Source of the DNA: Actinomycetota bacterium
GTDB lineage: Bacteria > Actinomycetota > Acidimicrobiia > Acidimicrobiales > Ilumatobacteraceae
NCBI GenBank assembly: GCA_009701715.1
Contig: WLJO01000004.1
Location: 1-64,000 of the forward strand
Reading direction: 5' to 3'
Length of the DNA stretch: 64,000 nt
A model generated the notes under the pieces. The model was not told the DNA's origin. It did not search any database and saw only the letters and a program-made list of their open reading frames with translations. Position 1 is the stretch's first letter. Every line of letters starts with the position of its first letter. A program made the position numbers and the translations under genes. Below are positions 18,887-43,413 of this stretch, in pieces.

Positions 18887-19904
18887 GGCCGGCCGGGCCG
18901 GCTGTTACCTCGCCGATCACCACGCCATCGTGGATCGTGCCGGCATGCTCCGGGGGGCACGACACCAGCAGCCCGCCCGAGGTCTGCGGGTCCGCGAGCA
19001 ACAGGCGATCCTCCTCGGACCCCCCGACGAGCAGGCCACCGACGAAGTCGAGGTTGCGCTGTGAACCAGCGGGAACGAAGCCGTCGACAATGAGCGACCG
19101 GGTGCCGTGGATCACCGGAAGCGCTGCAAGGTTGATCCGTGCCGAGACGCCGCTCGCGCCCAGCATCTTGTGGAGGTGCCCGGCGAGCCCGAATCCCGTT
19201 ACGTCCGTCATGGAGTGCGCACCTGCACGGCGTGCGTCCCGCGCAGCGGGTCCGTTGAACCGGCACATCGAGGCGACTGCGTGGGCGAAGGGCTCGGCGA
19301 GCGCGCCACCCTCGGCCACGGCGGCCGCATCGAGCCGCTTGTGGGCGGTGACGATGACACCGACACCGAGGGGTTTGGTGAGCACGAGCACGTCGCCCAC
19401 ACGGGCCTTCGCGTTGGTCAGCGGCTCGTGGCCCACAGCGAGTTCACCGATGACCACCTGGCCGTAGAGCGGCTCGGGCCCGTCCACCGTGTGCCCTCCG
19501 GCAATGATCCACCCGCCGTCGCGGGCGGCAGCGGCACCACCGGCAAACACGTCCCGCAGGAGGTCGAGGGGGAGTCGGTCCTTGGGCCACGCAGCGATGT
19601 TGAGCGCGAAGAGCGGCTCGGCCCCCATTGCGTACACGTCGCTCACGGCGTTCGTGGCGGCGATAGCACCGAATGTGAACGCGTCGTCGACGACCGGTGC
19701 GAAGAAGTCCACTGTTGCCACGAGGGCGCGCCCGTCAGGACGACGCCAGACAGCAGCGTCGTCACCCGTTTGTATCCCTACCCACAGGTCGGGATGCACA
19801 CTCGATTCAAGGGGCGACAGCACCTGCGCCAGCTCGGCTGGGCCGAGCTTGCAGGCTCAACCGGCGCCGTGGCTGAAGGCGGTAAGCCTCACGGGGTCGT
19901 TCAT
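18870..19904 (-). CDS. selD: Selenide, water dikinase, itself a selenoprotein (TGA read as Sec16)
   Basis: SelD makes selenophosphate from selenide and ATP, the selenium donor for selenocysteine and selenouridine. The conventional frame (from an internal ATG at 19823) is a full SelD body lacking its N-terminal active site. Reading through an in-frame TGA at 19857-19859 up to an ATG at 19904 restores it: LTAFSHGAG-U-ACKLG, aligning with the known SHGAGCGCK of Escherichia coli, where Cys17 is catalytic and Lys20 binds ATP. Sec16 and Lys19 take those positions. The body has DDAAV, the DFFAPVVDDAF motif, GGHTVDGPEP, MTDVTGFGLAGHL and DPQTSGGLL. The total is 344 residues including Sec. A perfect 8-bp hairpin follows the TGA. 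It is 41 bp downstream of the enoyl-CoA hydratase gene and overlaps the aldolase gene convergently. Confidence 0.93.
19831..19849 (-). promoter_or_regulatory. SECIS-like hairpin after the selD TGA codon
   Basis: Seven bases after the TGA, AGCTCGGC (19849-19842) pairs perfectly with GCCGAGCT (19838-19831) around the loop CCA. The apical loop lies 16-18 bases after the TGA, in the range known for bacterial SECIS elements. The 3-base loop has no GU, so its SelB contact is not canonical. Confidence 0.65.
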
Positions 19905-35267: not shown

Positions 35268-36031
35268 AGGTCGCAATCATCCAGCACACCATCACGTGGG
35301 AGGACCGCGAGGCGAACTTCCATCATCTCGCCCCGCAGATCACCGCTGCTGCTGCCGCCGGCGCGCGCCTTGCCGTGCTCACCGAGACGTTCTCCACCGG
35401 CTTCGGTCGCGGGGACCGCATCGCGGAACCCGAGGACGGGCCGTCTGCCACGTTCCTGCGGGAGCAGGCGACGGCCAAGAACATCTGGGTGTGCGGCTCG
35501 TGCCCCGAGGTACCGCCGAACTCGCCCGGTGGCAAGCCGTACAACACGCTGATTCTTGCCGGTCCGAACGGTGAGGTGCACCGCTACCGCAAGGTCCACC
35601 CGTTCTCGTTCTCCGGCGAGCACGAGCACTTCAACGCCGGCACCGAACTGGTGAACGTGACGGTGGAGGGTGTTCGACTCGCACTGTTCGTGTGCTACGA
35701 CATCCGCTTCGCCGACGAGTTCTGGCAGATGGCCAAGCAGACCGACGCATACGTGGTGGTGGCGAACTGGCCCGAGAGCCGTCGCCTGCACTGGATGTCG
35801 TTGCTGCAGGCGCGCGCGATCGAGAACCAGGCCTACGTGATTGCCTGCAATCGGGTGGGCGAGGGAGGCGGGCTCGTGTACTCCGGCGACAGCCGCATCG
35901 TGGACCCGCTCGGCGAGATCGTCGTGTCGGCGGCACGTGAGGAAGCACTGCTTGTTGCCGAGGTGAGTGCGAGCCACGTCGCCGACGTTCGCACCCGCTT
36001 CCCGTTCCTCCCCGACAGAAGAACGTGTTGA
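35264..36031 (+). CDS. Omega-amidase (carbon-nitrogen hydrolase family)
   Basis: This 255-residue nitrilase-superfamily amidase has the triad Glu41 (LTETFSTGF), Lys110 (YRKVHPFSFSGEHE) and Cys144 (FVCYDIRF). The substrate-loop pattern resembles omega-amidases, which hydrolyse 2-oxoglutaramate or 2-oxosuccinamate from glutamine or asparagine transamination. It is coupled to the aminotransferase gene by a GTGA overlap. The final RTC and stop abut a dispersed repeat array, so the C-terminus may have been changed when that arrived. Confidence 0.87.
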   Translation: MKVAIIQHTITWEDREANFHHLAPQITAAAAAGARLAVLTETFSTGFGRGDRIAEPEDGPSATFLREQATAKNIWVCGSCPEVPPNSPGGKPYNTLILAGPNGEVHRYRKVHPFSFSGEHEHFNAGTELVNVTVEGVRLALFVCYDIRFADEFWQMAKQTDAYVVVANWPESRRLHWMSLLQARAIENQAYVIACNRVGEGGGLVYSGDSRIVDPLGEIVVSAAREEALLVAEVSASHVADVRTRFPFLPDRRTC

Positions 36032-36039
36032 TGCTCGGG

Positions 36040-36101
36040 CATAGCCGCCGCTTCGCTTCGGCATAGCCCTCGTGTGGCTCGTCGCTGGCGCTTCCCTCGC
36101 C
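36040..36101 (-). repeat. Dispersed two-block 62-bp element, copy B1 (tandem)
   Basis: In minus orientation the unit is the 26-bp block GGCGAGGGAAGCGCC..., the core ACACGAGGGC, and the 26-bp block ending GGCTATG. It is identical to copy B2. The 77-bp period includes a linker with CGATAAGTGCT (36102-36112), an exact copy of 11 bp from the 3' end of the neighbouring GNAT gene (36191-36201). Confidence 0.88.
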
Positions 36102-36116
36102 CGATAAGTGCTCGGG

Positions 36117-36178
36117 CATAGCCGCCGCTTCGCTTCGGCATAGCCCTCGTGTGGCTCGTCGCTGGCGCTTCCCTCGCC
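36117..36178 (-). repeat. Dispersed two-block 62-bp element, copy B2 (tandem)
   Basis: Second unit of the tandem pair, 77 bp from B1. All 62 bases match B1. It lies 9 bp from the stop codon of the GNAT gene and fills the convergent gap with the omega-amidase gene. Confidence 0.88.
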
Positions 36179-36187
36179 ACGCGCTCG

Positions 36188-36688
36188 TCACGATAAGTGC
36201 TTGGCGAGGAGGCTGACCGTCTTGGTGCCCCCCTCGGTGTCCTGCCGTCCGACCTCGGCAAAGCCGATCCGGTGGTGGAACCGCAGCGACGCCTCGTTCA
36301 TCGGCTTCACGTTCACCTCGCAGAACAGCCACGGCACGCGCCCGGCGATCTTTCGCTCGAGCTCCGCATAGATCCGGGCCCCGATGCCCCGGTTGCGCAG
36401 GTGCGAGTGAACCACGATCCGGTCGAGATAGGTAAACGACCCGTATCGCTCCGAGAACCAGCGGTAGTTGAGACTGTCGTAGTCGGCCCCCGGATCGAGG
36501 TTCAGGCAGAAGCCGGCCACGCCTTCGTGCCCGTCGACGTGCACACCGAGCGCGTACGACGCCATCGACCACAGTCCTGTCAGCCCCGGCAGGTCGAGTT
36601 GGCTTGTCGCCGGCACGGCAGCGTTGTTCAGCACGAGGACCGTCTCGAGGTCCGCCTCGTCGAGGTCCGTGATGCGCAAACCGCTCAC
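36188..36688 (-). CDS. GNAT-family N-acetyltransferase
   Basis: This 166-residue protein has the GNAT acetyl-CoA motif A in VHSHLRNRGIGARIYAELE (the R-x-x-G-x-G/A loop) at about 100-118 and the preceding strand FTYLDRIVV. The C-terminal NEASLRFHHRIGFAEVG is the usual last strand-helix. The substrate is unknown. The GTG start at 36688 overlaps the stop of the upstream transporter gene (GTGA), so the two are coupled; an acetyltransferase paired with a drug-type exporter could be a detoxification unit. Confidence 0.85.
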   Translation of the reverse strand: MSGLRITDLDEADLETVLVLNNAAVPATSQLDLPGLTGLWSMASYALGVHVDGHEGVAGFCLNLDPGADYDSLNYRWFSERYGSFTYLDRIVVHSHLRNRGIGARIYAELERKIAGRVPWLFCEVNVKPMNEASLRFHHRIGFAEVGRQDTEGGTKTVSLLAKHLS

Positions 36689-41145: not shown

Positions 41146-41201
41146 CGGCACGCCCTCATGCTCTCACCTATGTGCGGATTCCTGTTCGCTACAGTCGAGC
41201 C

Positions 41202-41558
41202 GTGGCCAAGCCGATCATCTATCACAACCCTCATTGAAACTCCTCCAGCAATGCCGTGCGCATTGCCGAGGAGCTCGGCGTTGATGTCGATGTCGTCGTG
41301 TACCAAAAGACCCCTCCGGACCGGGCGGCGCTACAGCAGATCGTGGACCGTCTCGAGGACCCGGTAACCGAACTGGTACGCAGAGACTCGCTCTGGACGA
41401 AGCTCGGCCTTACCGACGCGGACGTGCAGACGGCTGATCAGGTGATCGACGTGATCCTCAAGCACAAGATGATCATGCAGCGACCCGTGGTGGTCACCGA
41501 CCGGAAGACGATCATCGGTCGGCCCAAGGACCGCGTGCGGGACTTGCTCTCGGCCTAG
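41202..41558 (+). CDS. ArsC/Spx-family thiol oxidoreductase, selenoprotein (TGA read as Sec12)
   Basis: A GTG at 41202 opens a frame of 118 residues with one in-frame TGA at 41235-41237. Read as selenocysteine, the N-terminus is IIYHNPH-U-NSSSN, which aligns with the ArsC motif YHNPRCSKS, so Sec12 sits exactly on the catalytic cysteine. Downstream, KTPPDRAAL, KLGLTDADV, MQRPVVV and the final GRPKDRVRDLL are ordinary ArsC-family features, and the length is right. Ignoring the TGA leaves a protein without its active site. A two-part hairpin starts two bases after the TGA. Glutaredoxin-linked arsenate reductases have this fold, but no ars genes are near, so a general thiol/selenol reductase role is also possible. 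It is divergent from the CoA-transferase gene; the 3' end overlaps the epsilon-subunit gene by 4 bp. Confidence 0.9.
41240..41273 (+). promoter_or_regulatory. SECIS element in the ArsC-like selenoprotein gene
   Basis: Lower stem CTCCTC/GAGGAG (41240-41245, 41268-41273), small internal loop, upper stem GCAATGC/GCATTGC (41248-41254, 41260-41266), apical loop CGTGC. The loop is 18-22 bases after the TGA and contains GU, as in known bacterial SECIS loops. All 13 base pairs are Watson-Crick. Confidence 0.85.
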
Positions 41559-41746: not shown

Positions 41747-41781
41747 CGCGATGATCCTTGGGTGTGTCGTGCGGTACTGCC

Positions 41782-41844
41782 GGCGAGGGAAGCGCCAGCG
41801 ACGAGCCGGAAGCCGGACTATGCCGAAGCGGAGCGGCGGCTATG
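41782..41844 (+). repeat. Dispersed two-block 63-bp element, copy C (between carboxylase genes)
   Basis: Left block GGCGAGGGAAGCGCC... matches copy B exactly, the core is GGAAGCCGGAC, and the right block differs from the others at one base (GCGGAGC). It sits between the carboxylase beta stop (41854) and the epsilon start (41746), inside what should be one operon. The flanks show only a loose similarity (TGTCGTGCGGTACTG and TGTCGGCCGTATCAG), so a target duplication is uncertain here. Confidence 0.85.
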
Positions 41845-41853
41845 TCGGCCGTA

Positions 41854-43413
41854 TCAGAGGGGCATGTTGCCGTGCTTGCGCTTCGGCAACTCCTCGCGCT
41901 TGGTGGCCAGCAGCGCCAGTCCTGCGACAATCTTCTGCCGGGTCTCGGCTGGGTCGATCACGTCGTCGATGTAGCCGCGCTCTGCAGCGGCGTACGGGTT
42001 GGCGTACTTCTGTGTGTACTCCTCCACGAGCTCGGCACGACGGGCCACAGGGTCGGCGGCCTGCTGGAGCTCACGGCGATACACGATCTCGACGGCACCC
42101 TGTGGCCCCATCACCGCGAGTTCCGCGGTCGGCCATGCGTACGACAGGTCCGAACCGATGGACTTGGAGTCCATCACCACGTAGGCACCGCCGTACGCCT
42201 TGCGCGTGATGATCTGGATGCGGGGCACGGTGGCCTCGCAATAGGCGTACAGCAGCTTCGCGCCGTGACGGATGATGCCGCCGTACTCCTGATCCACGCC
42301 GGGGAGGAATCCAGGCACGTCTACGAAGGTGATGAGCGGGATGTTGAACGCGTCGCAGGTGCGCACGAACCGGGCGGCCTTTTCGGCCGAGTCGATGTCG
42401 AGGACACCGGCGAACATCATCGGCTGGTTGCCCACCACGCCAACAGCGCGACCGTTGACGCGCGAGAATCCGCACACGATGTTCTTGGCCCAGTGCGGGA
42501 AGTACTCGAAGAACTCGCCGTCGTCGACAACTTCAGCGATGACCTTCTTCATGTCGTACGGCTGGTTCGGCGATGCGGGGAGGATGTCGCGCAGCATCTC
42601 GCAGAGGCGCTCGGGGTCGTCGGTCGGCTCCGAGACCGGTGCATCCTCGAGGTTGTTCGACGGCAGGAACGACAGCAGATAGCGGACGTCGTCCAGGCAG
42701 GCCTTCTCGTCGGGCGACACGAAGGTGGCGACACCGGACTTGGACGCATGGCTCATGGCACCGCCGAGCTGCTCGAGGGTGACCTCCTCGCCGGTCACTG
42801 TCTTCACCACATCGGGTCCGGTGATGAACATGTGTGAACTCTCGGTCACCATGAAGATGAAGTCCGTCATGGCCGGCGAGTACACGGCACCACCGGCGCA
42901 CGGCCCGAGGATCACCGAGATCTGCGGGATGACGCCGCTCGAGAGCACGTTGCGGTAGAAGATGCCGCCGTAGGAGGCGAGCGACACGACCCCTTCCTGA
43001 ATGCGGGCACCGGCACCGTCGTTGAGTCCGATCACCGGGGCACCCACCTTGAGGGCGAGGTCCATCAGCTTGTGGATCTTCTCGGCGAACACCTCGCCGA
43101 GCGCGCCACCGAACACGGTGAAGTCCTGTGCGTACACGAACACCTTGCGGCCGTCGACGGTGCCCCAACCCGTGATGACGCCGTCGGTGTAGGGACGCTC
43201 GTCCAGGCCAGCGGTATGGGCACGGTGGCGGGCGAGGAGGTCGAGTTCCTGGAACGAGGCGGGGTCGAGGAAGTACTCGATGCGCTCTCGCGCGAGCATC
43301 TTGCCCTTCTCGTGCTGGCGCTCGACCGACCGGGGGGAACCGGCGTGGTACGCCTCCTCCCGGCGCTGGCGGAGGTCGTCCAGCTTCTCGTGCATCGGAT
43401 TCGGGTTCGTCAC
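41854..43413 (-). CDS. pccB: Acyl-CoA carboxylase beta (carboxyltransferase) subunit
   Basis: This 519-residue biotin-dependent carboxyltransferase is of the PccB/AccD type, making methylmalonyl-CoA from propionyl-CoA or malonyl-CoA from acetyl-CoA. Conserved segments include QDFTVFGGALGE, NDGAGARIQEGV, GPCAGGAVYSPAMTDF, the oxyanion loop around FVDVPGFLPG, and TRKAYGGAYVVM with GPQGAVEI. Asp at the specificity position cannot be assigned by eye. The epsilon-like gene is downstream; the biotinylated alpha subunit is not in the window. Confidence 0.92.
   Translation of the reverse strand: MTNPNPMHEKLDDLRQRREEAYHAGSPRSVERQHEKGKMLARERIEYFLDPASFQELDLLARHRAHTAGLDERPYTDGVITGWGTVDGRKVFVYAQDFTVFGGALGEVFAEKIHKLMDLALKVGAPVIGLNDGAGARIQEGVVSLASYGGIFYRNVLSSGVIPQISVILGPCAGGAVYSPAMTDFIFMVTESSHMFITGPDVVKTVTGEEVTLEQLGGAMSHASKSGVATFVSPDEKACLDDVRYLLSFLPSNNLEDAPVSEPTDDPERLCEMLRDILPASPNQPYDMKKVIAEVVDDGEFFEYFPHWAKNIVCGFSRVNGRAVGVVGNQPMMFAGVLDIDSAEKAARFVRTCDAFNIPLITFVDVPGFLPGVDQEYGGIIRHGAKLLYAYCEATVPRIQIITRKAYGGAYVVMDSKSIGSDLSYAWPTAELAVMGPQGAVEIVYRRELQQAADPVARRAELVEEYTQKYANPYAAAERGYIDDVIDPAETRQKIVAGLALLATKREELPKRKHGNMPL

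Follow-up and report, generated by a model that had tools for sequence, protein, structure and literature searches.

In 2005, a new selenoprotein family was described from Sargasso Sea data, namely arsenate reductases that contain selenocysteine (Sec) within a UXXS motif (14 sequences; PMC1088965), and GOS work from 2008 reported 77 sequences under the name "ArsC 1" (pfam03960, UxxS; PMC2398784). Sec-ArsC is also listed, with COG1393/TIGR00014, in a 2022 review (PMC9312934) and in a 2026 review, where the functions of such selenoproteins are regarded as largely uncharacterised (PMC13188914). The same superfamily includes the "Arsenate reductase 2" selenoproteins and the Spx family, which carry a UxxC or CxxC motif (UxxC: PMC2398784) as opposed to the UxxS of the gene studied here, and to which our Spx matches were weak. 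Our search of the open literature found no dedicated study of Acidimicrobi selenoproteins or of selenocysteine in Ilumatobacter, although one may exist elsewhere.

Here, we analyzed a window of 64,000 nucleotides of actinobacterial DNA (contig WLJO01000004.1, positions 1 to 64,000) that harbors a gene resembling these UxxS selenoproteins: It belongs to the PF03960 fold family, a predicted Sec replaces the catalytic Cys, the motif is UxxS, and a predicted SECIS lies just downstream. It differs from the published family, whose fragments are known to us by description, in its actinobacterial genome, with relatives labelled Actinomycetota or Ilumatobacter, and, by the same descriptions, in the 48 distinct Sec genes, the two recurring SECIS hairpins, and the in-clade Sec-to-Cys replacements reported below. 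The glutaredoxin-linked ArsC of plasmid R773 (PDB 1I9D, 1JZW) is likewise similar (E = 2.9e-16 over residues 5-116), with His8, Cys/Sec12, Ser15, Arg60, Arg94, and Arg107 aligned, whereas R773 ArsC carries Cys in place of Sec and our gene has a shorter C-terminus and no adjoining arsenic genes. The gene is a genuine new member of the published selenoprotein family, and not a new kind of system. On the sequence comparisons that follow, we are highly confident that it is a functional selenoprotein gene, specifically a glutaredoxin-type ArsC of the UxxS subtype whose codon-12 UGA would be decoded as Sec under the direction of a hairpin.

Reading frame, in-frame TGA, and start codon

Translation through the TGA yielded a protein that begins with VAKPIIYHNPH-U-NSS, where the Ser located three residues past the TGA creates the UxxS motif (U-N-S-S). 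This read-through protein matched Pfam ArsC (PF03960) over residues 7-114 (E = 5e-15; 56 bits, versus a cut-off of 24) and NCBIfam arsC (TIGR00014) with E = 1.3e-26 and 93.3 bits, i.e., below the curated equivalog cut-off of 106.05, and the nearest solved structures were arsenate reductases, e.g., 1JZW and 3RDW (E = 2.9e-16). The predicted product is a member of the glutaredoxin-type ArsC family. The coordinates, GTG start, codon-12 TGA, and read-through frame given in the initial annotation were all reproduced, as was its observation that the full-length ArsC architecture continues in frame, given the span of the PF03960 match. Its placement of the TGA on the catalytic Cys of the ArsC motif was borne out by the alignment with Cys12 and by a comparison of 70 homologues. 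The expectation that a conventional gene caller would report a headless protein from GTG 41256 held, as the ORF listing contains just an internal 100-residue ORF at 41256-41558. Because standard gene callers truncate the gene in this manner, with loss of the active site, the enzyme is probably misannotated across the whole order.

Coordinates and strands of the predicted features, in window positions
Feature	Position	Strand	Remarks
selD (selenophosphate synthetase)	18942..19904	-	348.9 bits; own in-frame TGA at 19857-19859, at the active-site SHGAG-U-ACK
TACAGT, putative -10 element	41190..41195	+	6 nt ahead of the GTG
Predicted Sec-containing ArsC-family gene	41202..41558	+	357 bases, 118 residues; GTG start; lone in-frame TGA (UGA = Sec) at codon 12; closing TAG at 41556-41558
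In-frame TGA, read as selenocysteine	41235..41237	+	Aligned with catalytic Cys12 of R773 ArsC
Additional lower 6-bp stem, CTCCTC/GAGGAG	41240-41245/41268-41273	+	Present here, mostly not conserved in relatives
Conserved putative SECIS apical hairpin, GCAATGC-CGTGC-GCATTGC	41248..41266	+	Upper 7-bp stem 41248-41254/41260-41266; loop CGTGC 41255-41259, starting 17 nt past the TGA

The putative -10 element recurred at a characteristic position: Of the 53 homologues whose start codon precedes codon 12 by 11 codons, 47 carry a TANNNT motif that terminates 5-9 nt ahead of the start, as compared to 3 of 3131 control positions. This placement supports the assigned start codon, and the data suggest that the Sec-ArsC mRNA is leaderless, with Sec at codon 12.

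Codon 12 and the downstream hairpin among homologues

When set against the rules for a bacterial SECIS (a loop of 3-9 nt with a G within its first two positions, an upper stem of 4-16 bp, a distance of 16-37 nt from the UGA, and an MFE of at most -7.5; PMC13188914), the hairpin at this locus falls within every limit (loop CGTGC, 7 bp, 17 nt, -19.5 kcal/mol). Upon synonymous recoding with local codon usage, 18.6% of the trials yielded some stem of at least 7 bp that obeyed the loop/distance rule, while 0.14% gave the upper 7-bp stem at its exact place and 0.02% gave the two stems at once. Since qualifying stems are this frequent, and since the folding z-score for this locus alone is just -1.95, the hairpin by itself constitutes weak evidence. 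Its conservation in relatives is what places the predicted element far beyond chance.

To compare relatives, we searched 297 related genomes, 148 of which proved to contain ArsC homologues, and extracted 70 distinct sequences from the search matches plus fetched stretches. The best-matching homologues nearly all contained exactly one TGA, and codon 12 read TGA in 48 of the 70 genes and TGC or TGT in the remaining 22, such that predicted Sec or Cys, and nothing else, occupied this position. TGA also stands at codon 12 in the copy from the same genus as the window's genome (76-77% identical), and the residues ahead of the TGA are conserved in the homologues as I(Y/F)HNP(H/N). One candidate, from genome G058, was discarded as a TGA gene because it has TGC at this codon. 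The predicted Sec-ArsC is widespread in one group of Actinomycetota.

The hairpin itself was constrained at the nucleotide level. Its codons AAT GCC GTG and ATT were invariant in all 32 TGA genes of this hairpin class (this gene included), whereas outside the hairpin, the same genes used ATT for 2 of 173 Ile codons and AAT for 4 of 17 Asn codons (Fisher 2e-35 for ATT, a nominal value since the sequences are related). The upper 7-bp stem was complete in 23 of the 32 and retained 6 of its 7 pairs in the other 9. The initial annotation had described a two-part stem of 6 plus 7 bp with the loop CGTGC at the right distance from the TGA; the distance of the hairpin and its upper stem were upheld in relatives, and both stems are indeed present here, but the lower stem had all 6 pairs in just 4 of the 32 and is hence not part of the conserved element. 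The conserved putative SECIS is the apical 6-7-bp hairpin only. Cys homologues that share the similar peptide NAVKIAEEL used AAC/ATC codons or had an otherwise broken hairpin. The invariant AAT...ATT, the rarity of ATT elsewhere, and the loss of the hairpin in Cys homologues together show selection acting on the RNA, i.e., on a SECIS. Folding energy was rejected as a source of evidence on its own, because Sec and Cys genes could not be told apart by the MFE of the 48 nt past codon 12 (medians of -14.9 versus -15.4).

Beyond the 32, two TGA genes (L076, L077) kept the hairpin with one G-U pair, and ten from other families of the order (L107-L116) displayed all or part of a second SECIS-like hairpin, mostly CCUUGGC-GGUC-GCCGAGG, whose loop starts 23 nt past the TGA and whose stem is altered on both sides in L113. 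Neither hairpin was present in the TGA genes L104, L106, L117, and L118. Because Cys rows (L064, L080, L081, L082/L083), all without the hairpin, are interspersed with Sec rows in the tree, the pattern reads as repeated Sec-to-Cys replacement inside the clade, with many of the tree forks weakly supported.

These comparisons bear directly on whether the TGA is a Sec codon at all. Were it a true stop, the locus would be a pseudogene or encode a truncated product initiated at GTG 41256, which is what gene callers would deliver with their 100-residue ORF and which would fit an assembly where selC was not found. However, dozens of independent genomes share this TGA, each time in an intact frame and behind conserved residues, the hairpin does not vary at its synonymous sites, and initiation at the internal GTG would cost the protein its catalytic loop and its first strand, so we consider this reading very improbable. 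Even more remote is that the TGA represents a sequencing or assembly error for TGC or TGT: The window does come from a 96-contig draft assembly, but in relatives that were assembled separately, this codon is likewise TGA and is followed by the same hairpin. Both readings are thus already contradicted by the comparative data, and of the refuting outcomes named by the initial annotation, neither a miscalled TGA nor homologues lacking conservation upstream of it is borne out.

Selenocysteine machinery of the genome

Decoding of UGA as Sec would call upon SelB and Sec-tRNA. The genes selA (393.5 bits) and selB (271.3 bits) were found next to each other at 95146-97388 of the contig that also carries the ArsC gene, and, like the selD gene in the window, they scored above curated cut-offs. 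By its own in-frame TGA, selD is itself a predicted selenoprotein gene. When codon usage along the 102-kb contig was scanned for additional read-through genes, SelD was recovered, and the rest looked, by eye, like ordinary stops or shadow frames.

Neither the Rfam tRNA-Sec covariance model (whose best matches were ordinary tRNA-Cys/Ser/Leu/Arg), nor anticodon plus T-arm patterns, nor the selC DNA of a genus-mate as query detected selC in the 96-contig draft assembly, and it was absent beside selA/selB. Relatives commonly possess the gene, with selC at 58 bits or more in 43 of 60, both genus-mates included. In one of these (G002), the starts of selC and of a cpaF-type ATPase gene are about 320 bp apart, and several other relatives have cpaF homologues within about 3 kb of selC. 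The best cpaF homologue here (58% identical) lies at C62:9667-10779, and the contig stops at 10788, which is the side expected to carry selC; on the other side of the cpaF homologue are TadB/TadC-like genes, as in G002. Given that this homologue of selC's neighbor in G002 reaches the contig end, selC is probably missing due to a contig break. The initial annotation had proposed a check for selA, selB, and selC, two of which we recovered, and these, together with selD, support its selenoprotein reading. The lack of selC counts against that reading, but the adverse outcome was defined for a complete genome, and in this 96-contig draft the lack is best explained by the contig end. Across 61 genomes, selC was present in 17 of 19 with Sec-ArsC and in 26 of 42 without (p = 0.036), hence Sec-ArsC tracks selC only moderately, as many selC-bearing genomes are without it. 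Among genomes with the nested Cys rows, G013, G017, and G027 retain selC, and G012 had none over the cut-off.

Active site, arsenic context, and wider readings

The active site was fully retained among homologues, with His8, Asn9, Cys/Sec12, Ser15, Arg60, Arg94, and Arg107 kept in 70 of 70 sequences (R773 numbering, from a reference sequence that agrees with the 1JZW alignment). Arg60, Arg94, and Arg107 of ArsC are the arsenate-binding residues. Concerning the genomic context, the initial annotation had noted that no arsenic genes surround the locus; we indeed found none adjacent to it, although the genome contains acr3 elsewhere. An Acr3 arsenite-exporter gene over the cut-off is located at C53:13258-14247, and a second acr3 at C20:32940-33545 is cut by the contig end. 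These copies (L131/L133 on C53 and L134 on C20) encode near-identical protein where they overlap and each sits near a contig end; possibly, the assembly was interrupted here by a repeat or by a strain variant. A neighborhood comparison across relatives revealed no conserved functional partner and no conserved arsenic neighbor: A CaiB-type CoA transferase is located upstream in the genus-mate and in G013, and RecR adjoins the gene in others.

Since the active-site residues are kept and Acr3 genes are present in the genome, it is plausible that arsenate is reduced and the product then exported. The proposed sequence of events would start with the insertion of Sec into the ArsC product, where SelB with Sec-tRNA would decode the UGA as directed by the short hairpin 10-29 nt downstream of it. 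The Sec selenolate would then, judging from the conserved active site, attack arsenate at the conserved Arg residues that bind it, after which a presumed small-thiol or glutaredoxin-like partner would resolve the intermediate. Arsenite would thereby be released, and Acr3 could export it. While arsenate is, by our reading, the putative physiological substrate, the protein could also be a real selenoprotein with another job, namely a Sec-dependent reductase of the ArsC/YffB/Spx superfamily with a general role in thiol reduction or deglutathionylation. The lack of arsenic genes nearby, the lack of a conserved arsenic neighbor, and the score under the TIGR00014 equivalog cut-off are in line with such a role; the arsenate-binding Arg residues, His8, and Ser15, invariant in the 70 sequences, the arsenate reductases as closest solved structures, and the presence of acr3 in the genome all speak against it, and we consider it possible but rather unlikely.

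The close Sec and Cys versions, with a hairpin only where it is needed, make a clean comparison possible, both of how a SECIS functions and of how Sec is exchanged for Cys, and they suggest that selenium is used for arsenate reduction in many Actinomycetota. A broader reading, which in our estimate could equally well hold or fail, is that this actinobacterial order possesses a lineage-wide, near-invariant SECIS (GCAAUGC-CGUGM-GCAUUGC), with Sec decoded only 11 codons into leaderless Sec-ArsC mRNAs and repeated Sec-to-Cys replacement accompanied by hairpin loss. If true, the order would provide a natural series to test the benefit of selenium in arsenate reduction, as well as SECIS decoding without a 5' leader.

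Apart from the predicted selenoprotein genes, we observed that the string GKRQRRATRGLCRSEAAAMPEH and similar strings recur in translated frames at 41758-41860, at 35833-36261, and elsewhere between genes, which points to a DNA repeat that is scattered through the intergenic regions of the window.
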